NCBI RefSeq assembly: GCF_036203305.1
Contig: NZ_CP108131.1
Coordinates: forward strand, 7,254,001-7,318,000
DNA: 64,000 bases
Direction of reading: 5' to 3'
Origin: Streptomyces sp. NBC_00190
GTDB lineage: Bacteria; Actinomycetota; Actinomycetes; Streptomycetales; Streptomycetaceae
Made by a program: the position numbers and the translations under genes
The notes under the pieces: model-generated
Told to the model about the DNA's origin: nothing
What the model saw: only the letters and a program-made list of their open reading frames with translations
The model's database searches: none
In this document: positions 39,304 through 64,000 of the stretch, piece by piece
Position numbering within the stretch: position 1 is the stretch's first letter
How the letters are laid out: each line of letters begins with the position of its first letter

Positions 39304-39304
39304 A

Positions 39305-41116
39305 TCAGGAGGCGGAACGAGCCCGGTTGATGGAGTTGAAGAACGCGGTGGCGGTCGCGACGGCCGGATCGGCGTCGATGCCCACGCCATAGGCGGTGCC
39401 GGGGCCACTGCCGGTCCGCAGATAGACGGCGGTGCGCGGGCCGACCGCGTCGTCGACTTCGTGTTGCGTGACGGCGTGAAGCCGAACCTGGTGGCTCGTT
39501 CCGCTGAGTGCGTCCACCAGCGCGTCGGTGAGGCACTCCCCGGAGCCGGTGAGAACCTGCTCGTTTCCGTCGGGCTCGACCAGCCTGACCGAGAGGCGGC
39601 TGACGTTCTCCTCACGCGTCGCGCGGACTTCCTTCAGCAGCAGACCAGGCCGAGGCTCGACATAGGTGTCGCTGAAGATCTCCCACAGGCGGCGGGACGT
39701 GACCTCGACGCCGCTCTCGTCGGTGATCCGCTGGACAGCCTTGGCGAACTCCACCCGCAGCTCGCGTGGCAGGTCGAGTCCGTAGTGGGTCTTGAGTACC
39801 TGGGCGACGCCGCCCTTGCCGGACTGGCTGTTGACGCGGACGACGGACTCGTACGTCCGGCCCACGTCCTTGGGGTCGATGGGCAGGTAGGGAACTTCCC
39901 ACGGCAGCTCGGCCACAGGGCGGCCGGTGCGGGTGGCCCGCTGCTCCAGGGCGGCCAGTCCCTTGCCGATCGCGTCCTGGTGCGTGCCGGAGAAGGCCGT
40001 GTAGACCAGGTCACCGACGTACGGGTGGCGCGCGGGCACCGGCATCTGGTTGCTCTCCTCGACCGTACGGCGGACCGCGTCGATGTCGGAGAAGTCCAGT
40101 TGGGGATCGACACCCCGGCTGAACAGATTGAGCGCCAGCGTGGCCAGGCACGCGTTGCCGGTCCGCTCACCGTTGCCGAACAGCGTGCCCTCGATCCGGT
40201 CCGCGCCGGCCATCACGGCCAGTTCGGCCGAGGCGACCGCGGTACCTCGGTCGTTGTGCGGGTGGACGGACAGGATGATCGAACCACGGTTGTCCAGGTT
40301 CCGGTGCATCCACTCGACCTGGTCGGCGAAGACGTTGGGGGAATCGGTCTCCACCGTGGTGGGAAGGTTCAGGATCGCCGGCCGGTCAGGGCTGGCCTCC
40401 CACACCGAGGCGACCGCGTTGGAAAGGTCCAGCGCGAACTCCGGCTCGGTCACGTTGAACGTCTCCGGTGAGAACTCGAAGCGCAGGTTCGCCGCGCGCA
40501 TCGAGGCCGCCCGCGCGGCCACGTGCTCGGCCCCCCGCAGGGTGAAGTCCCTGAGTTCCTGGGGGGACATGGAAAACACCACGTCCCGCCACAGGCACGC
40601 GGTCGCCAGGCACAGGTGCACCACCGCCCGCTTCGCTCCCCGGATCGCCTCGAAGGTCCGGTCGATCATGTCAGGCCGAGCCGGCGTGAACACGACGATG
40701 GTCACGTCGTCGGGAATCCTGTCGTGCTCGATCAGCTCCCGGACGAATTCGAATTCCGCAGCGCTGGCACCGGGATAACCGACCTCGATCTCCTTGAACC
40801 CGGTCCGCACCAGCAGGTCGAACATCATTCCCTTGCGCCGGGAGTCCATGGGGTTGGCGAGTGACTGATTGCCGTCGCGAAGATCCACCGATGCCCACAG
40901 CGGAGCCTTCTTGATCTCCCGCCCGGGCCATGTGCGGTCGGTCAGCTCCTGCGACAGCCTGGACCCCTCACGCGCATAGCGGTGGAACGCCATCGGCGAC
41001 GCGCGCTGCGCGTTCCACGAGGGCTGTCCGACCCCGGCCGCGCCCCCCGCGACGACAGCGGATTCCATCCCCCACGGTGCGGGCAACGCCCCTGTCACCT
41101 CAATGAGTTCGGACAT
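39305..41116 (-). CDS. leuA: 2-isopropylmalate synthase paralogue in biosynthetic cluster
   Basis: 603-residue enzyme that condenses acetyl-CoA with 2-oxoisovalerate, the first step to leucine. The catalytic TIM barrel shows VDLRDGNQSLANPMDSRRK, KEIEVGYPGASAAEFEFVRE and the metal-binding SVHPHNDRGTAVAS; RVNSQSGKGG and the C-terminal allosteric LeuA-dimer domain (about 470-600) are present. ATG 41116 follows GGAGG by 9 bases. The sequence differs clearly from the housekeeping Streptomyces LeuA I know (for example VVHLCLATACLWRDVVFSMS). Placed divergent to the P450-halogenase-NRPS genes, it may raise leucine supply or build a chain-extended 2-oxoacid for a nonproteinogenic residue. Confidence 0.9.
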   Translation of the reverse strand: MSELIEVTGALPAPWGMESAVVAGGAAGVGQPSWNAQRASPMAFHRYAREGSRLSQELTDRTWPGREIKKAPLWASVDLRDGNQSLANPMDSRRKGMMFDLLVRTGFKEIEVGYPGASAAEFEFVRELIEHDRIPDDVTIVVFTPARPDMIDRTFEAIRGAKRAVVHLCLATACLWRDVVFSMSPQELRDFTLRGAEHVAARAASMRAANLRFEFSPETFNVTEPEFALDLSNAVASVWEASPDRPAILNLPTTVETDSPNVFADQVEWMHRNLDNRGSIILSVHPHNDRGTAVASAELAVMAGADRIEGTLFGNGERTGNACLATLALNLFSRGVDPQLDFSDIDAVRRTVEESNQMPVPARHPYVGDLVYTAFSGTHQDAIGKGLAALEQRATRTGRPVAELPWEVPYLPIDPKDVGRTYESVVRVNSQSGKGGVAQVLKTHYGLDLPRELRVEFAKAVQRITDESGVEVTSRRLWEIFSDTYVEPRPGLLLKEVRATREENVSRLSVRLVEPDGNEQVLTGSGECLTDALVDALSGTSHQVRLHAVTQHEVDDAVGPRTAVYLRTGSGPGTAYGVGIDADPAVATATAFFNSINRARSAS

Positions 41117-41425
41117 CTGAGCCAGCCTCCAAGGTTGGCCGGCGAGCAGCCTCCGCCGACGGAACGTGGCTTCATTCCCCAGGAACGGACAAGGGTTGTC
41201 CACCCTCCGATGACCGATCTGTCAGGTCCGTACATCGCCGGGCGAAGCCGTGCGCGGTGGTAGGTTCGAGCCGGTCGAGCGGCCGTTCCCGCCACCACTT
41301 TTCCTGCCGTCCGCGCCTCTGTTCCCCGCGGTTGTCCATTCCGGCGAACCCGGCGTCCGGTGTTTCCAGGACTTCGAAGTACCGTTCTCAGCTCGTTCTC
41401 GAGCCGACAGAAAGCTGGTCGAACC

Positions 41426-42655
41426 ATGCCCGTGCAAGAGGTGCCGAGCCTGCTGAAATTGTTCACCCCGGATCTGGCCGCCGACCCGTACCCGTTCTAT
41501 CGCGAGCTCCGTGAAAATCACCCGGTCCACTATGACAAGTGGATGCGCAGCTGGGTGATCCTCGGCTACGAGGAGATCAGCTCACTGTCCAAGGACGACC
41601 GGCTCTCGGGCGCCCGGATCGAGAGCTTCCACGAGTCGTTGCCGGCTGACGCGCGCGCTGAACTGAAACCGCTCAAGGACGCCTTGGCGGACATGATGGT
41701 CTTCCACGAACCGCCCCGCCACACACGACTGCGGCATCTGATACGGCCGGGCCTGACGCCCCGCTTCATCCGCGAGATGCGCCCGGTCATCGAGGGACTC
41801 ACCGATGAACTTCTGGACAAGGTCGTCGATCAGGGACGGATGGACGTCATCCACGATTTCTCCGAGCCGCTCACCCGGGGCGTGATCGGACGACTGGCCG
41901 GAGTTCCCCAGCACGCCGAACACCTGCTGGGCAACTGGCAGGGCCTGCTGCTGGAGTTCTTCGCCCAGTCCCGCAAGGAGATCCCGCGTGTCACCCAGCT
42001 GCGTGCCGCTTTCGACGAGGGGGCGTCGGCCCGCCGCGACGGGACCGGCACCGACTTCTTCACGCAGATGATCGCCGAACAGCTCCAGCAGGGCGACTTC
42101 ACCGAGGACGAGGTCTTCGCGAACTTCCTGCTGCTCATCGATGCCGGACAGGCCACCACCACCCACCTCATCGGCAACGCGGTCCTGGCCCTGCTCCGCC
42201 AGCCGGACCAACTGGAACTGCTGCGTTCGCAGCCGGAGCTGGCCACGAAGGCCGCCCACGAACTGCTGCGCTACGACAGCTCCGTGCAGTTCACCACCCG
42301 GGTCGCACTCGTAGACCTCGAAGTGCGGGGGCACAGGATCGCGGCAGGCGAATCGGTGACCCTGGTGCTCGGCTCAGGCAACCACGACCCCCTGAAGTAC
42401 GAGAACCCCGACCGGGTCGACATCACCCGTGGCTCCGCCGACCACCTCTCCTTCGGGCACGGCATCCACTACTGCCTGGGGGCCTCGCTGGCGGTGGCGG
42501 AGGTCGAGATCGCGCTGAGCCGGCTCCTCGCGCGCACCAGGGACCTCCGCCTCGCGGAACCCGGCCCCACCTGGCAGGACAGCATCAATTTCCGCTTCCT
42601 GAAGAACCTTTCGGTGACCTTCGCGCCGGCCACCGCCGCATCAAGCCGTACCTGA
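41426..42655 (+). CDS. Cytochrome P450 of the NRPS cluster
   Basis: 409-residue P450. The heme loop is FGHGIHYCLG (Cys ligand), the K-helix is HELLRYDSSVQF, and the I-helix reads DAGQATTTHLIGN, in which Ala replaces the usual Glu/Asp before TT; the neighbouring P450 at 8805 has AGHETTTHFIGN. ATG 41426 fits the family length. It stands 81 bp upstream of the halogenase on the same strand and 309 bp from the divergent leuA. Likely roles are hydroxylation or oxidative tailoring of an aminoacyl or peptidyl intermediate on the NRPS (inference). Confidence 0.9.
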   Translation: MPVQEVPSLLKLFTPDLAADPYPFYRELRENHPVHYDKWMRSWVILGYEEISSLSKDDRLSGARIESFHESLPADARAELKPLKDALADMMVFHEPPRHTRLRHLIRPGLTPRFIREMRPVIEGLTDELLDKVVDQGRMDVIHDFSEPLTRGVIGRLAGVPQHAEHLLGNWQGLLLEFFAQSRKEIPRVTQLRAAFDEGASARRDGTGTDFFTQMIAEQLQQGDFTEDEVFANFLLLIDAGQATTTHLIGNAVLALLRQPDQLELLRSQPELATKAAHELLRYDSSVQFTTRVALVDLEVRGHRIAAGESVTLVLGSGNHDPLKYENPDRVDITRGSADHLSFGHGIHYCLGASLAVAEVEIALSRLLARTRDLRLAEPGPTWQDSINFRFLKNLSVTFAPATAASSRT

Positions 42656-42736
42656 CAGACGGTCCGGTAGCCGTTGGACAAGATCGCGCAGTTCCTGGGG
42701 AATGGAGGCATCCGTCCTACCAGGGGGAACCTGACC

Positions 42737-44224
42737 GTGAACTCATCGACTGCCGAACACTTCGACCTCATCGTGGTCGGCGGCGGCCCGTCCGGATCGA
42801 CCCTCGCCACCCTCGTGGCGATGCGCGGACACCGTGTGCTGCTGCTGGAAAAGGAGAGTTTCCCCCGCTACCAGATCGGGGAATCGCTGCTTCCGGCGAC
42901 GGTGCACGGTGTCTGCAAACTCCTGGGCGTCACCGAAGAACTGGAGGCCGCCAACTTCACCAAGAAGCTGGGCGGCACCTTCCGCTGGGGCTCGAACCCC
43001 GAGCCGTGGACCTTCGCCTTCGCCATCTCACCGAAGCTCGCCGGCCCGACCTCGTTCGCGTACCAGGTCGAACGAATGAAGTTCGACAAGATCCTCATCG
43101 ACAACGCCCGTCGCAAGGGGGTGGACGTACGTGAGGAGTCCGCCGTCACCGACGTCGTCAAGGACGGCGAGCGGGTCACCGGCCTGCACTACCGGGATGC
43201 TGATGGCACGACACACGAGGTGACCGCCACGATCGTGGCGGACGCCTCCGGCAACCTCAGCAACATCCACAAGCACACCGGCGGCAAGCGCGTCTATTCG
43301 GAGTTCTTCCAGAACGTCGCCCTGTTCGGCTATTTCGAGGGTGGCAAGCGTCTGCCCGAACCGCGGAGCGGCAACATCCTGTCGGCCGCGTTCGACGACG
43401 GCTGGTTCTGGTACATCCCGCTCAGCGACACGCTGACCAGCGTCGGCGCGGTCATCGCACGCGACCGGGCCGACATCATCCAGGGCGATCCGGAGAAGGC
43501 GCTGCTCACGCTGGTCGACCGATGCCCGGAGATCCGGGACATGCTGTCCGACGCAACCCGGGTCACTGAAGGGCCGTACGGCGAGATCCGGGTACGCAAG
43601 GACTACTCGTACTCCAACACCACCTTCTGGAGCCCCGGCCTGGTCCTGGTCGGGGACGCCGCCTGCTTCGTCGACCCGGTGTTCTCCTCGGGCGTCCACC
43701 TCGCCACGTACAGCGGCCTGCTCGCCGCCCGCTCCATCAACAGCGTGCTCGCCGGAGACGTGGACGAGGAGCGCAGCTTCGCCGAGTTCGAGAAGCGCTA
43801 CCGTCGCGAGTACGGGCTCTTCTACGAGTTCCTGGTCGGCTTCTACGACCTGCACCACGACGAGAATTCGTACTTCTGGCAGGCCAAGAAGATCACCAAC
43901 ACCGGTAGCACCGACGTCGAGGCCTTCGTGGAACTGGTGGGTGGGGCGGCCTCCGGTGAGGCCGCGCTGACCGGCAACAGGCTCACCAATGCCGCCGAGC
44001 AGCTCGCGCAGGCCGTGGACTCGGCGGGCAGGGACGTCGCCACCGGCCTGGACCGCCCGGCCCCGTTCTTCCGGTCGGAGATCGTCGGCGAGGTCATGCA
44101 GGAGAGCGCCCGCGTGCAGGCCCGTGCGGCACTCGGACACGAGCTGACGGACGAGGACCCGCTCTTCAGCGGTGGTCTGGTGCCGTCCGGGGACGGCATG
44201 TCCTGGGAGATCCCCGCTAGCTGA
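42737..44224 (+). CDS. FAD-dependent halogenase, carrier-protein-bound substrate type
   Basis: 495-residue flavin halogenase. The FAD motif GGGPSGS is at residues 15-21, Lys76 lies in NFTKKLGGTFRWG and matches the proposed catalytic lysine of this enzyme class, and WFWYIP at 223-228 is the WxWxIP halogenase fingerprint. The C-terminal region (YDLHHDENSYFWQAKK) is typical of the CndH/BhaA/SgcC3 group, which chlorinate tyrosyl-type aromatic substrates on a carrier protein. GTG 42737 is preferred because AGGGGG lies about 9 bases upstream; a TTG at 42674 is less likely. Followed by a hairpin and the NRPS. With two predicted Tyr modules, chlorination of a tyrosine-derived residue is expected. Confidence 0.9.
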   Translation: MNSSTAEHFDLIVVGGGPSGSTLATLVAMRGHRVLLLEKESFPRYQIGESLLPATVHGVCKLLGVTEELEAANFTKKLGGTFRWGSNPEPWTFAFAISPKLAGPTSFAYQVERMKFDKILIDNARRKGVDVREESAVTDVVKDGERVTGLHYRDADGTTHEVTATIVADASGNLSNIHKHTGGKRVYSEFFQNVALFGYFEGGKRLPEPRSGNILSAAFDDGWFWYIPLSDTLTSVGAVIARDRADIIQGDPEKALLTLVDRCPEIRDMLSDATRVTEGPYGEIRVRKDYSYSNTTFWSPGLVLVGDAACFVDPVFSSGVHLATYSGLLAARSINSVLAGDVDEERSFAEFEKRYRREYGLFYEFLVGFYDLHHDENSYFWQAKKITNTGSTDVEAFVELVGGAASGEAALTGNRLTNAAEQLAQAVDSAGRDVATGLDRPAPFFRSEIVGEVMQESARVQARAALGHELTDEDPLFSGGLVPSGDGMSWEIPAS

Positions 44225-44234
44225 GTAACACCCG

Positions 44235-44263
44235 CAGGGCCCGCCAGGGCATGGCGGGCCCTG
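44235..44263 (+). terminator. Hairpin between halogenase and NRPS genes
   Basis: A 12-bp perfect stem CAGGGCCCGCCA / TGGCGGGCCCTG with a 5-base loop, 11 bp past the halogenase stop and 107 bp before the NRPS start. It could terminate or attenuate transcription so that the NRPS is expressed at a different level from the tailoring genes. Confidence 0.6.
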
Positions 44264-44370
44264 TGTCGTTCCCGGGGTGCCGACCGGCCCTGGCGCGCTC
44301 ACCGGTATGGCGCTGACGCGTGTGCCTCTGTCGCCGCCTTCGTTGACTTCGTTGGAAGAAGGAAAAGTTC

Positions 44371-47300
44371 ATGATCCCGTTGTCTTTCGCGCAGCATCGG
44401 CTTTGGTTCCTGCACAAGCTGGAGGGACCATCGGCGACATACAACATGCCGCTCGCACTGCGCCTGAGCGGCGGGATCGACGTGGAGGCGCTGCACGCCG
44501 GCCTGCTGGACGTGATGGAGCGGCACGAGTCGCTGCGCACCGTCTTCCCCGAGGCCGATGGTGAGCCGCACCAGCTGGTGCTCGATCCGGCGGATGTGCG
44601 GCTCGCCTGGGAACAGCGGTCCGTGACGGAAGCGGAACTGCCGGCCGCGCTGGACGAGGTGGCCCGCAACACCTTCGACCTGGCCACGGAAGTACCGATC
44701 CGAGCTTGGCTGTTCGAGGTGTCGGCCGACGAACACGTCCTGATGCTTCTCATGCACCACATCGCGGGCGACGGCTGGTCGATGGGCCCGCTCGCGCGCG
44801 ACGTGGTCGAGGCGTACACCGCGCGCGTCGAGGACCGGAACCCGAGCTGGGACGAACTGCCCGTGCAGTACGTCGACTACACGCTCTGGCAGCGCGAACT
44901 GCTCGGAGACGAGTCGGACCCGAACAGTGTGCTGTCCAAGCAGGTCGACTATTGGAGGGAGAAACTGGCCGGGCTGCCCGAACAGTCCACTTTCCCCACC
45001 GACCGCGCCCGCCCCGCCGTGGCATCGTACGAGGGTGCGCAGCTGAGCCTCGAACTGGACCGGGAGCTGCACCAACGGCTCGTCGAGCTGGCGCGTCGTT
45101 CGAACAGCACCGTGTTCATGGTGCTCCAGGCGGGCATGGCGGCCCTGATGAGCCGGCTCGGCGCAGGCACCGACATCGCGCTGGGCGCGGGCGTGGCCGG
45201 TCGCACGGACGAGGCACTCGATGACCTCATCGGCTTCTTCGTGAACATGTTCGTGCTCCGTACGGACACCTCGGGCGATCCGACCTTCGAGGAGCTGCTG
45301 GGCCGGGTCCGTGAGACCAGTCTGGCGGCCTACGCCAACCAGGACGTGCCCTTCGAACATCTGGTGGAGCTGCTGAACCCGCAGCGGTCCACCGGTCACC
45401 ACCCCCTCTTCCAGGTGGCCCTCGTCCTCCAGAACGCGCCGAGCGGAGACTTCGAACTCCCGGGAATCCAGGTACAGGCCGAGGTCCTGGGATCCGGAAC
45501 GTCCCGCTTCGACATGCTCATCTCGCTCACCGAGCGCCATGAGCCGGTGACCGGGCCGGCGGGCGTCGAGGTGCAGGTCGAGTATTCGACGGATCTGTTT
45601 GATCGTTCGTCGGTTGAGCGGTTGCTTGGGCGTTGGGTGTGGTTGCTGGAGCAGGTGGTGGCTGATCCGTTGGTGCGGGTTGGTGGGGTTGAGTTGTTGG
45701 CGGAGGCTGAGCGGGAGCTGGTGTTGTCGGGGTGGAATGAGACGGGGTGTGTGGTTCCGGAGGCTTCGCTGGCTGGGTTGTTCGAGGCTCAGGTGGTGCG
45801 GGATCCGGGTGCGACGGCGGTGGTGCGTGGTGGGGAGTCGTTGTCGTATGGGGAGTTGAATGCGCGGGCGAACCGGCTGGCGCATTGGCTGATCGGTGAG
45901 GGTGTGGGGCCGGAGTCGTTGGTGGGGGTGATGCTGCCGCGTTCGGTTGATCTGGTGGTGGCGGTCCTTGCTGTGCTGAAGGCCGGTGGCGGGTATGTGC
46001 CGATTGATGTGGAGTATCCGGCGGAGCGGCGTGCGTTCATTCTTGAGGATGCGGCGCCGGTGCTTGTGCTGGATGAGCGTGTGCTGGGTGGGGATTTTTC
46101 GGGGTTTGCGGATTCGGATCCTGGGGTGGTGGTGGATCTGGGGCATCCGGAGTATGTGATTTATACGTCGGGTTCTACGGGTCGGCCCAAGGGTGTGGTG
46201 GTGTCGCATCGGGGTGTGGCGAGTCTGGCGGTGACGCAGGTCGGGTTGCTGGAGCTGGGGCCGGAGAGCCGGGTGCTGCAGTTTGCTTCGCCGAGTTTTG
46301 ATACTGCGTTCTGGGATTTGCTGGTGGCTTTTGCTTCGGGTGCGGTGTTGGTGGTGCCTGAGCGTGGTCGGCTGGTGGGTGGGGAGTTGTTGCGGGTCCT
46401 GGCTGAGGGTCGGGTGTCGCATGCGTTGATTCCGCCGTCGGTGGTGGCGACGTTGCCGGTGGATGCTCCGGCGTTGCTGGGGGATCTGTGCTGTCTGGTG
46501 GTGGGTGCTGAGGCGGTGCCGCTGGATCTGGTGGCGCGGTGGTCGCCGGGGCGTCGGGTGATGAATGCGTATGGTCCGACGGAGACGACGGTCATTGTGG
46601 CGATGGCCGGCCCGATGGTGGGTGATGTGCCGATCGGGCGGCCGGTGGCGAATACCCGGCTTTATGTGCTGGATGAGGGTTTGTGTCCGGTGCCGGTGGG
46701 TGTTCCGGGTGAGTTGTATGTGGCGGGTTCGGGTCTGGCGCGCGGGTATGTGGGTCGTGCTGGTCTGACGGCTGAGCGGTTTGTGGCGTCTCCGTTCGGT
46801 GTGGGTGCGCGGATGTACCGGACGGGTGATCTGGTGCGTTGGCGTGCGGATGGGCAGCTGGAGTATCTGGGGCGTGCTGATGAGCAGGTGAAGGTGCGTG
46901 GGTTCCGGATCGAGCCGGGTGAGATCGAGTCGCTGCTGGTGGGTTTTGAGGGTGTCCGTCAGGCTGCGGTGATCGCTCGTGAGGATGTTCCGGGGGATCA
47001 GCGTCTGGTGGCCTATGTCGTGCCTGATCTTGAGGTGGCTTCGGCTGCCGTGTTGCCCGATGCCGCGGACTCCGCCGTGTCTTCTTCGGTCGGGATGTCT
47101 GGTACCGAGGCGCAGGTGGAGGAGTGGCGGGAGATTTACGACTCGGTGTATTCCGGGGCGGGTTCTGGCGGCTTTGGTGAGGATTTCTCGGGCTGGGACA
47201 GTTCGTATTCGGGTGAGCCGATTGCGTTGGGTGAGATGCGTGCCTGGCGGGATGCGGTCGTGGAGCAGGTGCGTGGGTTCGGTGCGCGTCGGGTGCTGGA

Positions 47301-48610: not shown

Positions 48611-51600
48611 TGGCCGGTGCCAGGGGGCTCGCTCGCACGGCACTGGTACCGATGGAGCGCCCTGATGTGGTGCCACTGTCCTTCGCGCAGCGCCGCCTGT
48701 GGTTCCTCCACAAGCTGGAAGGTCCGTCGGCGACCTACAACGTGCCCTTGGCGCTCAGGCTCAAGGGCACCATCGACTCCGATGCGCTGCGTGCCGCCCT
48801 GGGTGACGTGGTCGGCCGGCACGAGTCGCTGCGTACGGTGTTCCCCGAGGCGGGGGGTGAGCCGTATCAGCTGGTGCTGGAAACCGGGCAAGCCGACTTC
48901 CGTTGGGATCACCGTGTGGTCAGCGAGGACGAGCTCCCGGCCGCACTGGAGAAGGCGGCTCGGCACGGGTTCGATCTTTCCTCCGAGATCCCGTTGCGCG
49001 CCTGGCTGTTCGAGCTGAGTGGCGACGAGTGCGTCCTGCTCCTTCTGATGCACCACATCGCGGGTGACGGCTGGTCGATGGGCCCCCTGGCCCGGGACGT
49101 GGCGGAGGCTTACACGGCCCGTACGCACGGTGCTGCCCCCCAGTGGGCCGAACTTCCCGTACAGTACGCCGACTTCACGCTGTGGCAGCGTGAGCTGCTG
49201 GGTGATCTGGCGGCTCCGAGCAGCATGTTGGAGATCCAGATCGACTACTGGCGCGAGCAGTTGGCCGGTCTGCCGGATCAGGTGAGTTTCCCCGCCGACC
49301 GGCCCCGCCCTGCGGTGGCTTCGTACCAGGGTGCACACCTGACTTTGGAGCTGGACGCCAAGCTGCATCGGCAGCTGATCGCCCTGGCCCGAGGTTCGAA
49401 CGCGACCGTGTTCATGGTGCTCCAGGCGGCCATGGCGGCCCTGCTGACCCGCCTCGGCGCCGGAACGGACATCCCGATCGGCTCGCCGATGGCAGGCCGC
49501 ATGGACAATGCGCTGGATGATCTCGTGGGGTTCTTCGTCAACACCCTCGTCCTGCGTACGGACACCTCCGGCGACCCGAGCTTCGAGGAACTCCTCGGCC
49601 GCGTCCGGGAGACCAGCCTCGCGGCGTACGGCAACCAGGAGGTGCCGTTCGAGCACCTGGTGGAGCTGCTCAATCCGGAGCGCTCGACCTCGCGCCACCC
49701 GCTCTTCCAGGTCATCCTCGCCCTGCAGAACGCGCCCGAGGCGTCTTTCGAACTTCCCGGCCTCCAGATGGAGATGGAGGGCACGGACCTGCGGCTCTCA
49801 CCGGCCGACACCGTTGTGAACGTCCTTGAGCGCCGTGACCGTGCGGACAACCCCGCCGGCATCGACGTGTACGTCGAGTACGCGACCGATCTGTTCGACC
49901 GTGTGACGGTCGAGCGGGTGATGGGTCGGTGGGTGCGGTTGTTGGAGCAGGTGGTGGCGGATCCGTCGTTGCCGATCGGGCGTGTCGAGCTGTTGTCGGA
50001 GGTGGAGAGGGCTCAGCTGGTCTCGGGTTGGAATGACACGGCGGTTGAGGTGTCCGAGGCGACGCTGGCTGGGCTGTTCGAGGCCCAGGTGGTGCGGGCT
50101 CCGGGTGCGACCGCGGTGGTCCGTGGTGGGGAGTCGTTGTCGTACGGGGAGTTGAATGCGCGGGCGAACCGGCTGGCGCATTGGCTGATCGGTCAGGGTG
50201 TGGGGCCGGAGTCGTTGGTGGCGGTGGTGCTGCCGCGTTCGGTTGACATGGTCGTTTCTGTGCTTGCCGTGCTGAAGGCCGGTGGTGCGTATGTGCCGGT
50301 TGATCCGGAGTATCCGGCGGAGCGGCGTGCGTTCATTCTTGAGGACGCGGCGCCCGTCCTCGTCCTTGACGAGGATGTGCTGTGTGGGGACTTCTCCGGG
50401 TTTGCGGATTCGGATCCTGGGGTGGCGGTGGATCTGGGGCATCCGGCGTATGTGATCTATACGTCGGGTTCTACGGGGCGTCCCAAGGGTGTGGTGGTGT
50501 CGCATCGGGGTGTGGCGAGTCTGGGGTCCGCGCAGGTCGAGCGGTTCGGTGTGACGGCTGCGAGCCGGGTTCTGCAGTTCGCTTCGCCGAGTTTTGACGC
50601 GGCGATGTCGGAGATGTTGATGTCGTTCGCGTCGGGTGCGGTGCTGGTGCTGCCGGAGGGCGGGAAGCTGGCGGGTGAGGCGCTGCTGGCGGTGCTGGCC
50701 GGGCAGGGGATCACGCATGTGACGGTGCCGCCGTCGGTGCTGGGGGCTTTGCCTGCTGGTGTGGAGTCTGGGTCGGGGCTTTCGTCTTTGGAGACGGTTG
50801 TTCTGGCGGGTGAGGCTGCTCCTGTGGAGTTGGTGGCCCGGTGGTCGGGGTCGCGGCGTGTGGTGAATGCGTATGGTCCGACGGAGTCGACGGTGTGTGT
50901 GTCGATGAGCGGTGAGGTGTCGGATGGTGTGGTTCCCATCGGTCATCCGGTGGTGAACACGTCCGTGTATGTGCTGGATGAGGGTTTGTGTCCGGTGCCG
51001 GTGGGTGTTCCGGGTGAGTTGTATGTGGCGGGTTCGGGTCTGGCGCGTGGGTATGTGGGTCGTGCTGGTCTGACGGCTGAGCGGTTTGTGGCGTCTCCGT
51101 TCGGTGTGGGTGCGCGGATGTACCGGACGGGTGATCTGGTGCGTTGGCGTGCGGATGGGCAGTTGGAGTATCTGGGGCGTGCTGATGAGCAGGTGAAGGT
51201 GCGTGGGTTCCGGATCGAGCCGGGTGAGATCGAGTCGCTGCTGGTGGGTTTTGAGGGTGTCCGTCAGGCTGCGGTGATCGCTCGTGAGGACGTTCCGGGG
51301 GATCAGCGTCTGGTGGCCTATGTGGTTCCCGATGCTGGTGGCCGGCCTGTTGCGGGGGTGCTGGTGGAGTCGCTCGCCGAGCGGCTTCCCGAGTACATGG
51401 TCCCGGCAGCCGTGGTGCTGCTGGACGACGGTCTCCCGCTCACCCCGAACGGCAAGCTGGACCGCCGGGCGCTGCCCAAGCCCGACTATGCGGCGGCCTC
51501 GGGCGGGCGGGCTCCGCGGACTCCACAGGAAGAGGTCCTCGCGGGCCTGTTCGCCGAAGTCCTCGGCGTCGACCGAGTCGGCATCGACGACAGCTTCTTC

Positions 51601-54600
51601 GACCTCGGCGGCCATTCCCTCCTCGCCACCCGCCTCGTGAGCCGCATCCGGACCGTCCTGGGCGTGGAGCTGCCCATCATGGACGTCTTCGACTCGCCGA
51701 CGGTCGCAGGCCTCGCGGCGCTGCTCGACGCGTCCCTGCTGCGGGGGCGCGCCACCCTTGTTCCGATGAAGCGCCCGGAGGCCGTACCGCTGTCCTTCGC
51801 GCAGCGCCGCCTGTGGTTCCTCCACCAGATGGACGGCCGCTCGGCGACGTACAACGTCCCGCTCATCCTGCGCCTGAAGGGAGCGGTGGACCCTGCCGCG
51901 CTCGCCAGTGCGCTGCGTGACGTCATCGGCCGGCACGAGTCGCTGCGTACGGTGTTCCCCGAGGCGGGGGGTGAGCCGTATCAGCTGGTGCTGGAAACCG
52001 GGGAAGCCGATTTCCGTTGGGATCACTGTGTCGTCAGCGAGGACGAGCTTCCGGCCGCGCTGGAAGAAGCGGCCCGGCACGGGTTCGACCTGTCCGGCGA
52101 ACTGCCTCTGCGCGCGTCGTTCTTCGAACTGGGCGCGGATGACAGCGTCCTGATGCTTCTGATGCACCACATCGCGGGTGACGGCTGGTCGATGGGCCCC
52201 CTGGCCCGGGACGTGGTGGAGGCCTACACGGCGCGCACGCGCGGTGCTGCCCCCCGATGGTCCGAACTCCCGGTCCAGTACGCCGATTACACCCTCTGGC
52301 AGCGTGAACTGCTCGGTGAGGCCGCTGACCCCGACAGTCTCTACCAAAGCCAAGTGGCGTACTGGCGCAAGCAGTTGGCCGGTCTGCCGGATCAGGTGAG
52401 CTTCCCCGCCGACCGGCCCCGCCCGGCGCAGGCCTCGTACCGGGGCGGCTATCTGACCTTCGAGCTCGATGCCGCTCTGCACCGCCGGCTGATCGCTCTG
52501 GCACGGGCATCGGGCACCACCGTGTTCATGGCGCTCCAAGCCGGTATGGCGGCCCTGCTGACCCGTCACGGCGCCGGAACGGACATCCCGATCGGCTCGC
52601 CGATCGCGGGCCGCACGGATGACGCGCTGGACGATCTCGTGGGGTTCTTCATCAACACCCTCGTCCTGCGTACGGACACCTCCGGCGACCCGAGCTTCGA
52701 GGAACTCCTCGGCCGCGTCCGGGAGACCAGCCTCGCGGCGTACGGCAACCAGGAGGTGCCGTTCGAGCACCTGGTGGAGCTGCTCAACCCGGAGCGCTCG
52801 ACCTCGCACCACCCGCTCTTCCAGGTCATCATGGGCCTGCAGAACGCCCCCGAGGCGTCATTCGAATTCCCCGGCCTCCAGGTAGAGCTCGGTGGCCTGG
52901 ACCTGAACATCTCCAAGGCGGACCTCGAACTCAACGTGGTCGAACGCCGCGGTCACGACGGCACCCCGGAAGGCGTGCTCGCTGCCGTTCAGTACGCGAC
53001 CGATCTGTTCGACCGTGTGACGGTCGAGCGGGTGATGGGTCGGTGGGTGCGGTTGTTGGAGCAGGTGGTGGCGGATCCGTCGTTGCCGATCGGGCGTGTC
53101 GAGCTGTTGTCGGAGGTGGAGAGGGCTCAGCTGGTCTCGGGTTGGAATGACACGGCGGTTGAGGTGTCCGAGGCGACGATGGCTGGGCTGTTCGAGGCCC
53201 AGGTGGTGCGGGCTCCGGGTGCGACGGCGGTGGTCCGTGGCGGGGAGTCGTTGTCGTACGGGGAGTTGAATGCGCGGGCGAACCGGCTGGCGCATTGGCT
53301 GATCGGTCAGGGTGTGGGGCCGGAGTCGTTGGTGGCGGTGGTGCTGCCGCGTTCGGTTGACATGGTCGTTTCTGTGCTTGCCGTGCTGAAGGCCGGTGGT
53401 GCGTATGTGCCGGTTGATCCGGAGTATCCGGCGGAGCGGCGTGCGTTCATTCTTGAGGACGCGGCGCCCGTCCTCGTCCTTGACGAGGATGTGCTGCGTG
53501 GGGATGTTTCGGGGTTCCCGGACATTGATCCTGGTATCAGTGTGTCCATGGCCAATCCGGCGTATGTGATCTATACGTCGGGTTCTACGGGGCGTCCCAA
53601 GGGTGTGGTGGTGTCGCATCGGGGTGTGGCGAGTCTGGGGTCCGCGCAGGTCGAGCGGTTCGGTGTGACGGCTGCGAGCCGGGTTCTGCAGTTCGCTTCG
53701 CCGAGTTTTGACGCGGCGATGTCGGAGATGTTGATGTCGTTCGCGTCGGGTGCGGTGCTGGTGCTGCCGGAGGGCGGGAAGCTGGCGGGTGAGGCGCTGC
53801 TGGCGGTGCTGGCCGGGCAGGGGATCACGCATGTGACGGTGCCGCCGTCGGTGCTGGGGGCTTTGCCTGCTGGTGTGGAGTCTGGGTCGGGGCTTTCGTC
53901 TTTGGAGACGGTTGTTCTGGCGGGTGAGGCTGCTCCTGTGGAGTTGGTGGCCCGGTGGTCGGGGTCGCGGCGTGTGGTGAATGCGTATGGTCCGACGGAG
54001 TCGACGGTGTGTGTGTCGATGAGCGGTGAGGTGTCGGATGGTGTGGTTCCCATCGGTCATCCGGTGGTGAACACGTCCGTGTATGTGCTGGATGAGGGTT
54101 TGTGTCCGGTGCCGGTGGGTGTTCCGGGTGAGTTGTATGTGGCGGGTTCGGGTCTGGCGCGCGGGTATGTGGGTCGTGCTGGTCTGACGGCTGAGCGGTT
54201 TGTGGCGTCTCCGTTCGGTGTGGGTGCGCGGATGTACCGGACGGGTGATCTGGTGCGCTGGCGTGCGGATGGGCAGCTGGAGTATCTGGGGCGTGCTGAT
54301 GAGCAGGTGAAGGTGCGTGGGTTCCGGATCGAGCCGGGTGAGATCGAGTCGCTGCTGGTGGGTTTCGAGGGTGTCCGTCAGGCTGCGGTGATCGCTCGTG
54401 AGGACGTTCCGGGGGATCAGCGTCTGGTGGCCTATGTGGTTCCCGATGCTGGTGGCCGGCCTGTTGCGGGGGTGCTGGTGGAGTCGCTCGCCGAGCGGCT
54501 TCCCGAGTACATGGTCCCGGCAGCCGTGGTGCTGCTGGACGACGGTCTCCCGCTCACCCCGAACGGCAAGCTGGACCGCCGGGCGCTGCCCAAGCCCGAC

Positions 54601-57600: not shown

Positions 57601-60600
57601 GCCCTGCGCGCCTTCCTGGCCGAGCGCCTCCCGGACTACATGGTTCCGGCGGCCGTCGTGGCTCTCGACGGCATCCCCCTGACACCCAACGGCAAGCTGG
57701 ACCGGCGTGCGCTGCCGGCGCCCGACTTCGGGGCACTCAGCGCCGGCCGGGCCCCGCGCACCGCGCAGGAGGACGTCCTGTGCGGGCTGTTCGCCGGTGT
57801 CCTCGGAGTCGACCGCGTCACCATCGACGACAGCTTCTTCGAGCTGGGCGGACACTCACTGCTCGCGACACGGCTCGTCAGCCGGATCCGGGCCGCGCTC
57901 GGCGTCGAGGTACCCATCAGCGCGGTGTTCGCCACGCCGAGCGTGGCCGGGCTGGCCGCGTGGATCGAGACGGGCACCGGTCAAGTCCGCACGGCCCTGA
58001 CGCCGATGCCCCGTCCTGATGCCGTACCGCTGTCGTTCGCGCAGCGCCGGCTGTGGTTCCTGAACCGGTTGGAGGGACCGTCGGCCGCGTACAACTGGCC
58101 GTTCGTGCTCAACCTGTCCGGGCCGGTGGACCAGGACGTGCTGCGGGCAGCACTGCGCGATGTGGCGCTGCGGCACGAGTCGCTGCGTACGGTCTTCCGG
58201 GAAACGGACGGGGAACCGCACCAGGTGGTGCTCGACCCGGCCGCCGCCGGACTGCCGTTGACCGTCGCCGGGGTGGCGCCGGACAGGATCCACCAGGCGG
58301 TACACGAGGCGATCGGTCACCATTTCGGCCTCGACTCCGAACCGCCGGTGAGGGCCTGGCTGTTCGTTCCGGAACCGACCGGTTTCGGCGGCCCGGCATC
58401 CGGACCCGTGCTCGTACTGCTGATGCACCACATCGTCGCGGACGGGGCGTCCCGCGCCTCGCTGATGCGTGACCTCTCCGAGGCGTACGAGGCCCGGCTC
58501 GCGGGCTCCGCCCCCGGCTGGGCCCCCCTGCCCGTCCAGTACGTGGACTACGCGATCTGGCAGCAGGAGCTCCTCGGCCGGACCGACGACCCGGACAGCC
58601 TGGTCTCACGGCAGCTCGCCTACTGGAAGGACGCGCTCGACGGCATCCCGTCCCAGCTCGAACTTCCCACGGACTGGCCGCGCCCCGCTGTCGCCGGCTA
58701 CCGGGGCGGTGCCCTGACCTTCGCCCTGGACGCCGAACTCCACGCAGGCCTGCGCAAAGTCGCCGCGGACTCCCGCTCCACCCTGTTCATGGTCCTGCAG
58801 AGCGGCTTCGCCGCCCTGCTCACCCGGCTCGGCGCGGGCCACGACATCCCCGTCGGCATCCCGATCGCGGGCCGCACCGACGAGGCCCTGACCGACCTGG
58901 TCGGGTTCTTCGTCAACACCCTGGTGCTCCGTACGGACACCAGCGGCAACCCGCGCTTCGACGAGCTGCTCGAACGGGTCCGCGACACCGCGCTGACCGC
59001 CTACACCCACCAGGACCTGCCCTTCGAGTACCTGGTCGAGGCGATCAACCCGGTGCGCTCGCTCTCCAGCAACGCCCTGTTCCAGGTGATGTTCCAGCTG
59101 CAGAACGTCGACGCGCCGACCCTGCGCCTGCACGACGTCGAGGCCACGCCCTACCCGCTGGAAGGCGACAACTCCAAGTTCGACCTGTTCCTGAGTCTCG
59201 CGGAGAACGAGACGGCACAGGGCCGGCCCGCGGGGCTGAGCGCCACCCTCGAATACGCCACCGAGCTGTTCGACCGGGCCACCGTCGAGAAGTTCGCCGT
59301 CTGGTACGAAAACCTGCTGCGCGCAGCGGTTCTCGACCCGGCAGTGCGGATCGAGGACGCCGCGCTGCTCACCGCCTCCGAGCGGGCCGAGATCCTGGTG
59401 GCCCGCAACGACACGGGAGCCGAGCCGCCCGCGCGGTGGGTGCACGAGACGTTCCAGCGGCAGGCCGCAGCCACCCCCGGAGCCCTCGCCGTGCGCTGCG
59501 GTACGCAGGAGGCCGACTACGGGCGGCTGAACGCACGGGCCAACCAGCTGGCCCGGTACCTGCTCGGCCAGGGCATCGGCGCGGAGAGCGTGGTCGCGCT
59601 GGCCCTCCCCCGCTCCGTGGACATGGTCGTGGCGATCCTCGCCGTACTGAAGGCGGGCGCCGCCTACCTGCCCATGGACCCCACCAACCCGGCCGACCGG
59701 CTCGCGTACGTCCTCGCGGACGCCGAGCCCGCCGCACTGATCACCACGTCCGCCCTGCACGGAGCGCTGCCGCACCCGCTGCCCGATCTGTCGGTCCGAC
59801 TCGGCGACCCCGACGTGGAGGGCCTGCTGACCTCCCTCCCGGCGGACGACGTGACGGACGCGGACCGGCGGACCCCGGTCCGCGGCGACCACTCCGCCTA
59901 CGTCATCTACACCTCGGGCTCGACCGGCTACCCCAAGGGCGTGGTGATCTCGCAGGCGAGCATCGCCCACTTCCTGGACGCCGTCCTCGCGCGCGTCCCG
60001 CTGACCCCGCAGGACCGCATGGTGGCCGCGACCACCGTCACCTTCGACATCACGGCCGTCGAGATCCACGCCCCGCTGCTCCGCGGCGCGAGCGTGGAGC
60101 TGGCCACCGATCAGGTCGCCAGGGACCCGATCGCCCTGCACCGCCTGATCCGTGACAGCGGCGCGACGGTCTTCCAGGCCACCCCCTCGGTGTACCGGTC
60201 GATCCTGGCGCACGCCCCGGACGGGCTGGCGGACATGCGGCTGCTCGTCGGAGGCGAGGCACTGCCCGCCACCCTTGCCGAGCGGCTGCGGGCGCAGGGC
60301 GGCGGAGCCGTCAACCTCTACGGCCCCACCGAGGCCACCGTCTGGATCACCGCCGCCGACGTGACCGGTCCCGAACGCACCCCACGGATCGGCCGGCCGC
60401 TGCGCAACGCCCAGGTGTACGTGCTGGACGCGGGCCTGCGGCCGGTCCCGGACGGGGTGGCGGGCGAGCTGTACCTCGCCGGTCCCTTCCTGGCCCGTGG
60501 CTACCTGCGCAGGCCCGGCCTGAGCGCCGAGCGCTTCGTGGCCAACCCCTTCGGCGCTGCCGGCACACGCATGTACCGCACCGGCGACCTCGCCACATGG

Positions 60601-63600
60601 CAGGCCGACGGCGGCCTGGAGTTCATCGGCCGGGTCGACGATCAGGTCAAGGTCCGGGGCTTCCGCATCGAACTGGGCGAGATCGAAGCCGCTCTCTCCC
60701 GGCAGGACGGCATCGCCGCCGCCACGGTCCTCGTCCGCGAGGACAACGACACCCCGCAGCTCGTCGGGTACGTCGTACCCGACCGGGAACGGACCGGGGG
60801 ACACGACGGGGCCGAGAGCGGGCTCCAAGTCGATTCCTGGCAGGAGGTCTATGAATCGCTCTACCGCGACCAGACCGAAACCGGAGGGTTCTGGGAGGAC
60901 TTCGGGATCTGGACGAGCAGTTACGACGGCTCCCCGATCCCGCTCGCCGAGATGCACGCGTGGCGCGCCTCGGCCGTCGGGGAGATCCTGCGGCTGCGCC
61001 CGCGCCGCGTACTGGAACTCGGCGTCGGAAACGGCCTGATCCTCTCCCAGGTGGCGCCGCATTGCACCGCATACTGGGGCACCGACTTCTCGTCGTCCGC
61101 CATCGACAGCCTGCGCGCCCGGATCGAGGACCACGCCCAGGAACTCCCCGGCCGGGTGGAACTGAGAGCGCAGCCCGCCGACGACACCTCGGGCCTGCCC
61201 GGGGACTTCTTCGACACCATCGTCGTGAACTCGGTCGCGCAGTACTTCCCCAGCGCCGACTACCTGACCGACGTCATCCGCAAGGCGCTGGCTCTGCTGG
61301 TGCCCGGCGGCACCCTGTACCTGGGCGACATACGGAACCTGCGGCTGCTGCGCACGATGCAGGCCGGTGTCGTCCGGGCCGGTGCCGAAGGCACCGACAC
61401 GACCGACGACCTGCCGGCCCAGCGGGCCCAGATCGACCACAAGGTGACCGGCGAGGAGGAACTGCTCCTCGCGCCCGAGTTCTTCACCGGCCTCGGCCGC
61501 GAACTGGCGGACATCGGGGGTGTGGACATCCGGCTCAAGCGCGGTGCGTTCGACAACGAACTCTCCCGCTACCGCTACGAAGTGATCATCTGCAAGACCC
61601 CGACGGTTCCCGCCGAGGTCCACGCCCTGGCGGAGATCGACTGGGCGGAGTGCCACGGCGGACCGGACGGGCTCGCGGATCTGCTGCGGGAACACCCCGG
61701 CGGCCTGCGGCTCACCAAAATCCCCAACAGCCGACTGACCGAGGACGCGGCAGCACTCCGCCGGATCGACGGCCTGGAGCCGGAACCCGCGCATGCCGTG
61801 GCGGACCCGGAGACCGTCATCACGTACGCCGAGCGGCTCGGCCTGCGGGCCGTCGCCACCCCGTCCGAGACCGGCGACCCGCATCGTTTCGACATGGTCC
61901 TCCTGCCGCAGGCGGACGGCCCGGTCGCCGCCTACCGGGGCAGGCGACAGCCGTCCGGCGAACCGGCCCACGCGGCGCCGTACTCCAACAGCCCGGCCCG
62001 GACCGCCCGGCTCGCCCGGCTCCACCGGGAACTGCCGGCCCGGCTGCGCGAATGGCTGCCCGACTACATGGTCCCGTCGGCCTTCGTCGTGCTCGACGAG
62101 CTGCCGGTGACCCCGATCGGAAAGCTGGACCGCGCGGCCCTGCCGGCCCCGGACTACGGCATCCTCAGCAGCGGACGGGCCCCCCGCACACCCCGCGAGG
62201 AGATCCTGTGCGAGCTCTTCGCCGACGTCCTCGGGCTGAAGCGGGTGACCGTCGACGACAGCTTCTTCGAGCTGGGCGGGCACTCGCTGCTCGCCACACG
62301 GCTGGTCAGCCGGATCCGCGGCGCCCTGGGGATCGAGGTACCGATCGCCGCGGTCTTCGACGCCCCGACCGTGGCCGGGCTGGCCGAACGCATCGACTCC
62401 GGCGCGGCGACCGCGCGTGCGGCCCTGCTGCCCATGGAGCGGCCCGAGGCGGTCCCGCTGTCGTTCGCGCAGCGCCGCCTCTGGTTCCTGCACAAGCTCG
62501 AAGGCCGGTCGGCGACCTACAACCTGCCCCTGGCACTGCGCCTGCGGGGAGCCGTCGACGAGGAAACGCTGCGGGCGGCGCTCGCCGATGTCATCGCCCG
62601 GCACGAGTCGCTGCGTACGGTCTTCCCCGAGACCGACGGGGAACCGCGCCAGCACGTGCGCGACGCCGGAGCGGCCGACTTCGGCTGGCGGGTCACCCGG
62701 GCCACGGAAGAGGAGTGGCCGCAGCGCATGGCGGCCGCCGTCTCGTACGCATTCGACCTCGGGACCGAGATCCCGGTGCGCGCCGAGCTGTGGCACGTGG
62801 CCGCCCCGGTCGACGGCGATGCGACGGACGAATCCGACGGAACCGACGGCTCCCGCGTCCTGCTGGTGCTCCTGCACCACATCGCGGGCGACAGCTGGTC
62901 AGCCGGACGGCTGCTCCGGGACCTGACCGCGGCCTACAGCGCACGGATCCACGGAACCGCGCCGCACTGGCCTCGGCTGCGCGTCCAGTACATCGACTAC
63001 ACGCTCTGGCAGCGCTACATCCTCGGCGACGAGGACGACCCGGACAGCACCGTCGCGCAGCAGATCGTCTACTGGCGCAAGCTGCTCGCCGGAGCGCCCG
63101 AGGAACTCGCCCTGCCGACGGACCGGCCCCGCCCGGCGGAGCCGAGCTACCAGGGCGGCACCGTCCGCTTCGAACTGCCGGCACGGGTACACCGCGCCCT
63201 GGCCGCGCTCGCCGAGGCCTCCGGCGCGAGCACCGCCATGGTGCTCCAGTCCGCGGTGTCCGTACTGCTGTCCAAGCTGGGCGCGGGCGATGACATCGTG
63301 CTCGGCACGCCCGTCGCCGGGCGCACCGACGAGGCGCTGGAGGACCTGATCGGGTTCTTCGTCAATACGCTGGTGCTGCGCGCCGATCTGTCGGGTGACC
63401 CGACCTTCGGCGACCTCGTCGGCCGGGTCCGCCAGGCCGTACTGGAGTCGTACGTCCACCAGGACCTGCCGTTCGAGCGGCTGGTCGAGCTGGTCAACCC
63501 GTACCGGGCGACCGCGCGGCACCCGCTGTTCCAGGTCATGGTGGACTTCGGTGTCACGGGCGACGCGTACGAGGGCCCGGCCGAGCTGGACATCGAAGCG

Positions 63601-64000
63601 GTCGGCATCGAGACGCCCACGGCGAAGTTCGACGTCGACTTCACCTTCTCCGAGCGCATGACACAAGACGGTGCCCCGGCCGGGGTCACGGGGGCCCTGC
63701 GCTACGCCGCCGACCTGTTCGACCACGGGACTGCGGCGGCGATGGCCGACCGGTTGACCGCGCTGGTGGACACCATGGTGGCCGCCCCGCACCACAGGCT
63801 GAGCGCGTTCGATGTCCTCAGCCCCGCCGAACGGCAGCACTGGGAGACGTCCGGGGCACGGGACTCGGCACCGCGGACGCCGGACGACACGACCGTCGTA
63901 CGGCTCTTCGAGGAGCAGGCGGCGGCCACCCCGGACGCGACGGCGGTCGTCGAGGACGGCATCGCGTTGACCTACGCGCAGGTCAACGCGTGGGCCAACC
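44371..64000 (+). CDS. Multimodular nonribosomal peptide synthetase (3' end outside window)
   Basis: A single open frame with at least 6,543 residues visible, running off the right edge. ATG 44371 has AAGGA 7 bases upstream. Domain order: C-A(nMT)-T, C-A-T, C-A-T, C-A-T, C-A(nMT)-T, C-A... All five visible carrier domains have LGGHS with phosphopantetheine serines at residues 1378, 2416, 3454, 4496 and 5972. There are no epimerisation, heterocyclisation or thioesterase domains in view, and no loading module: the protein starts with a condensation domain. Pocket residues suggest X(NMe), Tyr, Tyr, Asp-like, N-methyl-Gly. The upstream halogenase and P450 are the presumed tailoring enzymes. Codon usage is mosaic, with modules 1-3 adenylation regions T-richer. 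The remaining modules, release domain and any MbtH partner must lie to the right. Confidence 0.96.
48664..51720 (+). other. NRPS module 2: C-A-T, predicted Tyr
   Basis: C domain with HHIAGDG (first His is residue 1561), A domain with [12 protein letters not shown] domain Ser2416. Pocket code DASTVAAVCK, the pattern I associate with tyrosine or beta-hydroxytyrosine. Its adenylation DNA is nearly identical to module 3. Confidence 0.85.
49877..51488 (+). repeat. Long intragenic direct repeat, copy 1 (module 2 A domain)
   Basis: About 1.6 kb that is nearly identical to 52991-54602 at a constant offset of 3,114 bp, covering the end of the C domain and most of the A domain. Only scattered substitutions were seen, apart from a divergent patch of about 70 bp (50380-50448 against 53494-53562). 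A sub-block of about 360 bp (50966-51325) also recurs in module 1 at 46661-47020. Confidence 0.9.
51778..54835 (+). other. NRPS module 3: C-A-T, predicted Tyr
   Basis: C domain with HHIAGDG (first His residue 2599), T domain Ser3454. The pocket code DASTVAAVCK is identical to module 2. Its C domain differs from module 2 far more than its A domain does, which localises the duplication to the adenylation region. Confidence 0.85.
52991..54602 (+). repeat. Long intragenic direct repeat, copy 2 (module 3 A domain)
   Basis: Partner of the copy at 49877-51488. Identity ends just after the A10 [13 protein letters not shown] codons, after which the linker to the T domain becomes module-specific. Confidence 0.9.
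54890..57960 (+). other. NRPS module 4: C-A-T, predicted Asp or related acid
   Basis: C domain HHITGDG (first His residue 3640), T domain Ser4496. Pocket code DLTKIGAVNK: the DLTK start with Lys at position 4 is characteristic of Asp/Asn-activating domains, and the overall code is close to Asp codes of acidic lipopeptide synthetases. Codon usage here returns to the normal GC-rich Streptomyces pattern. Confidence 0.8.
58010..62390 (+). other. NRPS module 5: C-A(nMT)-T, predicted N-methylglycine
   Basis: C domain HHIVADG (first His residue 4686). The A domain carries a second inserted N-methyltransferase (SAM motif VLELGVGNG from residue 5547), homologous to that of module 1 (shared Y.SGEP/YDGSPI entry and DIRLKRG...N.L.R.RYEV end). 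T domain Ser5972. Pocket code DIVQLGLVWK closely matches the glycine code DILQLGLIWK, so sarcosine is the predicted product residue. Confidence 0.82.
62440..64000 (+). other. NRPS module 6: C domain with HHxxxDS and truncated A domain
   Basis: The C domain is complete to about 63790, but the catalytic motif is HHIAGDS (His from residue 6169, Ser6175) where the family has HHxxxDG. The A domain begins near 63890 and is cut by the window edge after [11 protein letters not shown], before any specificity residue. Confidence 0.82.

Follow-up and report, generated by a model that had tools for sequence, protein, structure and literature searches.

A 64,000-nucleotide stretch of the chromosome of Streptomyces sp. 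NBC_00190 (hereafter the window; positions 7254001-7318000 of an 8.89-Mb genome in two contigs) holds the left part of a nonribosomal peptide synthetase (NRPS) cluster which, judged from its sequence, probably makes an N-methylated peptide of about ten residues, with diaminopropionate and a chlorine on tyrosine. The cluster is real and appears to be a halogenated variant, so far uncharacterised, of a conserved NRPS family. Compared with its relatives, this version seems to do without a P450sky-like cytochrome P450 and to possess a P450-halogenase pair, two Tyr-type pockets and pockets spread by copying. A sequence-only reading of the window had placed a P450, a halogenase and an NRPS together in a halogenated, N-methylated cluster; all three are present, and the domain content backs that description. 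The same reading called the cluster uncharacterised, in keeping with our searches of the openly licensed literature, in which no matching product was found; the cluster belongs to a conserved family. Likewise, its five NRPS modules stand as read after extension to the right, but the protein continues past 64000 into a sixth, degenerate adenylation domain and a thioesterase-like end, followed by a second NRPS and diaminopropionate genes, up to about coordinate 89,500. Coordinates are in window numbering, run past 64000 by joining neighbouring chromosomal stretches, and the cluster genes are as follows.

41360-42655, + strand: P450 (PF00067); best solved relative 3ejb (the biotin-biosynthesis P450 BioI), E 2.7e-68
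42674-44224, + strand: flavin-dependent halogenase (PF04820) of the carrier-protein type (variant B, CndH/CepH-like); best solved relative 3e1t, E 5.2e-181
44371-66417, + strand: NRPS1, 7348 residues, cut by the window end at 64000; 44371 is the first listed start codon of a frame open for 7356 codons
66730-80109: NRPS2; four carrier (T), three condensation (C), three adenylation (A) and three methyltransferase (MT) domains in Pfam
about 80216-80434: MbtH
80527 (probable start): NRPS3, an A-T protein
83064-84086: TauD; only solved relatives at 1e-5 are 1y0z and 9yut
84158-85231: SbnB, NCBIfam equivalog, 407.8 bits against a cut-off of 326.9
85238-86224: SbnA, adjoining SbnB, NCBIfam equivalog, 385.1 bits against a cut-off of 349.95
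86290-87819, opposite strand: stand-alone A domain; best solved relative 6o6e (L-prolyl-carrier-protein ligase), E 1.6e-132
88056-89498: stand-alone C domain; best NCBIfam match MxcG, next EntF

A transposase-like gene lies beyond the stand-alone C domain. In a genus sample of 392 genomes, this one included, SbnB was detected in 217 at E 1e-40, and an identity of 78-80% was reached in only three others, designated G138, G088 and G337. In these three genomes NRPS1, NRPS2, MbtH, NRPS3, TauD, SbnB, SbnA and the stand-alone A and C domains are collinear with the present cluster at an overall identity of 64-79% (NRPS1 66-70%, NRPS2 70-72%, MbtH 74-77%, NRPS3 64-66%, TauD 72-73%, SbnB 77-78%, SbnA 79%, stand-alone A 69-73% and C 67-72%). 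A search with the stand-alone C domain matched only G088 and G138 among 334 other family genomes. Within 5-16 kb upstream of NRPS1 in the three relatives no orthologue was found of the window P450 and halogenase, nor of the leuA and antiporter genes to their left. A different P450 stands there on the opposite strand, 28-31% identical to the window P450 and 76-98% identical among the relatives; for the G138 copy the best solved match is 4l0e (E 2.8e-153, 513.8 bits), and the copies of the two other genomes share 98% and 76% identity with that of G138. We take 4l0e and 4pwv to be P450sky of skyllamycin biosynthesis, which hydroxylates carrier-bound amino acids; P450sky is thus the best solved relative of the P450 upstream in the relatives, whereas the window P450 is closest to 3ejb. 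The three clusters also differ from the window in several pocket codes, and the sixth A domain of NRPS1 is intact in two of them.

The domains of NRPS1 were located by a C-domain search and a motif scan, those of NRPS2 by Pfam. Six C-domain matches above the cut-off, six carrier motifs, five A3 cores and two MT motifs lie in one frame, and since the six C matches and six carrier motifs share a single 7348-residue frame, the pattern is not due to chance. The layout is C-A-MT-T, C-A-T, C-A-T, C-A-T, C-A-MT-T and C-A*-T-TE, where A* is degenerate and TE is a thioesterase-like end called from its GWSFG motif and sequence; all or most of A*, T and TE falls to the right of the window end. The last C domain carries HHIAGDS in place of the usual HHxxxDG, and the sixth A domain is considered degenerate as it is without an A3 core and aligns poorly in its middle part. 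It is degenerate in G337 as well, and intact with an Asp code in G138 and G088; its loss in the window and G337 means either a changed last residue or reliance on another loading domain. All pocket codes were read by eye from sequence segments, by mapping motifs to positions. Module 1, with an MT, has DTWLVGAVI; modules 2 and 3 both have DASTVAAVC, presumably a Tyr-type code; module 4 has DLTKIGAVN, which we take as Asp-type; and module 5, also with an MT, has DIVQLGLVW, in our assumption a Gly-type code and hence N-methyl-Gly. The codes of modules 4 and 5 are the same in all four clusters, and the five together agree with the order X(NMe), Tyr, Tyr, Asp-like, N-methyl-Gly proposed before. No epimerization (E)-type domain was recognised.

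NRPS2 begins with a free carrier, which is followed by three N-methylating modules with three MT motifs; no TE was found. Its module 1 has DAWTVAAVC, presumably a Phe-type code, as have G138 and G088, with DAWTAAAVC in G337. Module 2 has DSLQWSLIQ in all four clusters; an attempt to assign it through solved A domains was dropped, the top LgrA score being summed over two domains. Module 3 has DTWLVGAVI, and the relatives have DAWLVGAVA, DAWLVGAVA and DAWLVGAVC. Because MbtH occupies about 80216-80434, NRPS3 is likely to start at 80527, with the MGTPT-type start common to the relatives, rather than at the first start codon, 80287. Its pocket, DIWQSTADD in all four clusters, resembles the diaminobutyrate code DIWELTADD, and given the presence of SbnA and SbnB it would fit L-2,3-diaminopropionate (Dap).

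Based on these features we hypothesize that SbnA and SbnB form Dap, which NRPS3 would activate. The first carrier of NRPS2 would be charged in trans, probably either by the stand-alone A domain, which is PltF-like in that we take 6o6e to be PltF, or by the Dap system, the stand-alone C domain serving as the link. NRPS2 would then add N-methyl-Phe, a second N-methylated residue and an N-methylated hydrophobic residue, and NRPS1 an N-methylated hydrophobic residue, two Tyr, Asp, sarcosine and a last residue, which, given the degenerate sixth A domain, would have to be loaded in trans. This order of the two synthetases is the most likely one, since NRPS2 starts with a free carrier and no TE was found in it, and NRPS1 has the TE, which would release the product, probably as a ring. 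NRPS2 and NRPS1 together hold ten carriers and five N-methylations. Two of the carriers, the first of NRPS2 and the last of NRPS1, appear to need trans loading, for which NRPS3, the PltF-like A domain and the stand-alone C domain are the candidates. The halogenase is predicted to chlorinate one or both Tyr on the carrier proteins, and the P450 and the TauD enzyme to hydroxylate residues; from its neighbouring genes we guess that TauD may act on Asp or Dap.

The WFWYIP and flavin adenine dinucleotide (FAD)-binding motifs are present in the halogenase, and we assume them to be significant for this class of enzyme. None of its 11 solved matches at 1e-15 bears the name tryptophan halogenase, and the best, 3e1t, bears out its earlier description as a carrier-protein-type enzyme. 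In passages of PMC8407142, 3e1t is CndH, a carrier-type enzyme, related carrier-type halogenases chlorinate Tyr bound to a peptidyl carrier protein, and Tcp21 and Pep1 are described as acting on carrier-bound aromatic residues. Among the best 120 matches listed, the window halogenase is 63-67% identical to CepH-named proteins and forms an orthologue group of 77-83%, the next full-length homologue being at 67%; a Streptomyces mirabilis halogenase, at 64%, is no closer than the CepH-named enzymes. By sequence it is thus of the same family as the CepH-named and CndH-type halogenases, but falls in a separate orthologue group linked to an N-methylating NRPS. It would therefore belong with the enzymes for carrier-bound aromatic residues, and chlorination of carrier-bound Tyr is proposed. 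As for the P450, its database copy is 22 residues shorter (409 residues), and the true start is probably later than 41360. Among the 60 listed of its 327 solved matches, no entry was recognised as OxyA/B/C or as another glycopeptide cross-linking P450; the best is 3ejb.

The pockets of NRPS1 modules 1 to 3 lie within long exact repeats, which are read as the result of recent copying between modules.

45576-46754, + strand: 1179-bp tract of NRPS1 module 1, A pocket included, identical to 77034-78212 in NRPS2 module 3
50441-51047, + strand: 607-bp tract of NRPS1 module 2, A pocket included, identical to the module 3 copy
53555-54161, + strand: second copy of the 607-bp tract, in NRPS1 module 3, identical to the module 2 copy

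At module 1 of NRPS1 the relatives have DAWTVAAVC (G138 and G088) or DAWTAAAVC (G337) against DTWLVGAVI in the window, a code of the type that all four clusters have at NRPS2 module 3; because the 1179-bp identity spans the pocket, this was probably copied from NRPS2 to NRPS1. The A domains of modules 2 and 3 are 97.8% identical, and at pocket position 239 both 607-bp copies encode Ser (TCG), in contrast to the Trp (TGG) of NRPS2 module 1. At module 3 the relatives have DAWTVAAVC (G138 and G337) or DALFIGLVA (G088), and at module 2 DVGQVGAVC (G138 and G088) or DAATLAAVC (G337). The module 3 pocket of the window is accordingly one residue, Trp to Ser, away from the Phe-type code of G138 and G337, and the pocket of module 2 may derive from that of module 3. 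Trp-to-Ser at position 239 is reportedly an engineered way of opening Phe pockets to para-substituted rings. We tentatively suggest a natural re-tooling, a scenario that we consider possible and still doubtful, in which, within an otherwise collinear NRPS family, a P450 and a tyrosine halogenase took the place of a P450sky-like P450, and a single-base Trp-to-Ser change at 239 was copied by gene conversion into two neighbouring modules, giving substrates for the halogenase; further copying would have moved the NRPS2 module 3 pocket to NRPS1 module 1 and altered the residue there as well. The direction of change between the versions is itself deduced from comparison.

The halogenated version is probably common to several species. 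In the database searches (best 120 matches listed for each of P450 and halogenase, species names as given by the sources), P450 orthologues of 74-90% identity occur in named Streptomyces. The identities of P450, halogenase and stand-alone C domain are 82, 83 and 70% in Streptomyces sp. LZ34, 78, 80 and 71% in NPDC014734, 77, 77 and 71% in S. cyanogenus, 78, 78 and 68% (the last over half length) in S. libani subsp. rufus and 78, 79 and 54% in S. chartreusis. As orthologues of all three proteins occur in the same five named Streptomyces, the cluster is not confined to this strain. The presence of P450 and halogenase on one contig is suggested for S. chartreusis (46.6 kb), NPDC014734 (305 kb) and another contig of 4.4 kb. 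NPDC059917 has the P450 (90%) and the C domain (74%) with no halogenase among the best 120 listed, and in Streptomyces sp. 769 the P450 is at 82% and the C domain at 59%, an 81% halogenase being entered under S. yunnanensis. A C domain of 68-72% with no halogenase of the group among the 120 listed was found in NPDC059452, NPDC006990, Kitasatospora sp. NPDC008050, S. rimosus and CB02923. A halogenase match occurs in 56 of the 392 genus genomes, and the P450 in three of the 391 others at E 1e-140 (59-65%). With ten proteins of the cluster and an MT segment as queries, blast revealed no orthologous cluster near halogenase homologues in 22 named genome contigs, where the best halogenase is 71% identical over residues 19-373 only, nor at 20 halogenase loci (own included) of the genus genomes, where the best other identity is 66%. 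Likewise, the 60 nearest relatives and kin hold nothing closer to the halogenase than 66%.

Several points weigh against these proposals. All substrate names of the NRPS1, NRPS2 and NRPS3 pockets are tentative, being read from Stachelhaus codes, and the product itself is a prediction. Neither DTWLVGAVI, which appears to be of a hydrophobic type, nor DSLQWSLIQ has a trusted assignment, and the last residue may differ between the clusters, with a degenerate sixth A domain in the window and G337 and an intact one in G138 and G088. For the P450 no specific functional assignment is offered by its matches. As to the change of pockets, the simple Phe-to-Tyr step is seen for module 3 only, as no relative has DAWTVAAVC at module 2, and the link between halogenase and Tyr pockets comes from the only halogenated cluster read (n=1). 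Halogenases of the same family (63-64%) are encoded elsewhere in the genomes of G138, G088 and G337, so that these strains are not proven makers of non-chlorinated products. Finally, the C domain of S. chartreusis is only 54% identical, and co-occurrence of genes in complete chromosomes is no proof of adjacency to the NRPS.

The product may instead be a Streptomyces peptide already described, its cluster being recorded in MIBiG, which lay outside our search, or in a paper that is not open. We hold this to be somewhat unlikely: the long-studied S. rimosus, S. cyanogenus, S. libani subsp. rufus and S. chartreusis have orthologues of the stand-alone C domain and hence probably members of the cluster family, but structural, strain and compound terms retrieved no matching product from the openly licensed literature on chlorinated, N-methylated, Dap- or sarcosine-containing Streptomyces peptides. 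To our knowledge no N-methylated, chlorinated, Dap-containing decapeptide is known from Streptomyces. Among described compounds, dityromycin and GE82832 contain N-methylated residues and two cross-linked tyrosines, which recalls the similar carrier count and the two adjacent Tyr pockets seen here. Dityromycin is a cyclic decapeptide according to the relevant passage of PMC6763770. A dityromycin-type cluster, as partly described, has three P450s and genes for a 2-oxo-acid dehydrogenase and an enoyl-CoA hydratase, whereas a single P450 and neither of the other two were seen among the genes scanned at 39305-89498 (NRPS1 and NRPS3 not Pfam-scanned), and the available part of the legend to that cluster names no halogenase or Dap genes. 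On these tailoring genes dityromycin or a close analogue was rejected as the product and is extremely improbable. Pepticinnamin, N-methylated as well, had been put forward as the closest comparison in the form of pepticinnamin E, and the carrier-type halogenase and N-methylating NRPS would suit a cinnamoyl-capped, chlorinated peptide of that kind. Pep1 chlorinates an enzyme-tethered aromatic amino acid, as stated in part of PMC8407142. The comparison fails, however, on the Dap genes of the cluster and on the distance to any strong ketosynthase match: of the chromosomal matches scoring more than 100 bits, the nearest lie at 7076364-7077196, some 218 kb to the left of the P450, and at 8489861, with one 27-bit match at 7225348. 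A pepticinnamin-like product was rejected for want of a strong ketosynthase match nearby and is very improbable.

Two further alternatives concern the parts of the cluster. The P450, halogenase, NRPS1 and NRPS2 might belong to one cluster and MbtH, NRPS3, TauD, SbnB, SbnA and the stand-alone A and C domains to a neighbouring one with a separate product, as SbnB is widespread among the genus genomes (217 of 392) and has TauD and SbnA beside it in several further loci. This is quite unlikely, given that the three relatives keep NRPS1, NRPS2, MbtH, NRPS3 and all of the Dap group in collinear order and that trans partners are needed, the sixth A domain of NRPS1 not working and the first carrier of NRPS2 being without one. 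The halogenase homologue could also perform another FAD-dependent step, or chlorinate a free or otherwise bound substrate; members of its family vary in substrate, and the substrate of CndH is indicated, in part of PMC8407142, to be another enzyme-tethered analogue of Tyr, which may be decarboxylated. Its WFWYIP and FAD motifs, its 63-67% identity to CepH-named proteins and its place directly upstream of NRPS1 make this unlikely, and chlorination of carrier-bound Tyr in a single Dap-containing assembly line is the reading that we prefer.

Two genes adjoin the cluster on the left.

37954-39318, - strand: Na+/H+ exchanger-type antiporter (PF00999)
39305-41203, - strand: second copy of a LeuA-type 2-isopropylmalate synthase, longest frame with an N-terminal extension

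The leuA gene is a paralogue, as had been proposed, a stronger match lying at C1:2867909-2869597. The antiporter is present too, but left of the segment beginning at 39305 to which it had been assigned. Membership of both in the cluster is unproven because no match was found 5-16 kb upstream of NRPS1 in the three relatives. An exchanger-type gene occurs near a flavin halogenase in nine of 22 loci from named genome contigs (L013, L016, L021, L022, L024, L026, L027, L029 and L033), within about 320 bp in eight and at 2.8 kb in one, a count that stands without a background rate and in which some loci stop at a contig end; the exchanger may be a halogenation-linked transporter. Among the SbnB loci ranked fourth and lower, only that of G286 was extended (L079, G286:C88:1-18000): it has a halogenase, an antiporter, SbnB and SbnA in a row and no listed reading frame above 641 residues in 18 kb, and may serve a chlorinated Dap-containing product of some other type, unless the contig end has truncated the cluster. 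At several of the loci L055-L073, SbnB has TauD and SbnA as neighbours. Elsewhere in the present genome there are 51 condensation-domain matches, in several places, and a stronger Trp_halogenase match at C2:71883-73142, on the 260-kb contig 2 that matches a plasmid: 4.3 kb of this contig show 100.0% identity to the 260-kb plasmid of Streptomyces sp. NBC_00122, which places the host close to that strain.

If the proposed product is correct, the cluster would provide a new chlorinated, N-methylated, Dap-containing peptide scaffold. Likewise, the re-tooling, if true, would be a field example of a pocket and a tailoring enzyme changing in match. The halogenated and non-halogenated relatives would then constitute a natural test of the co-change of pocket and tailoring, in which the one-base change can be assayed.

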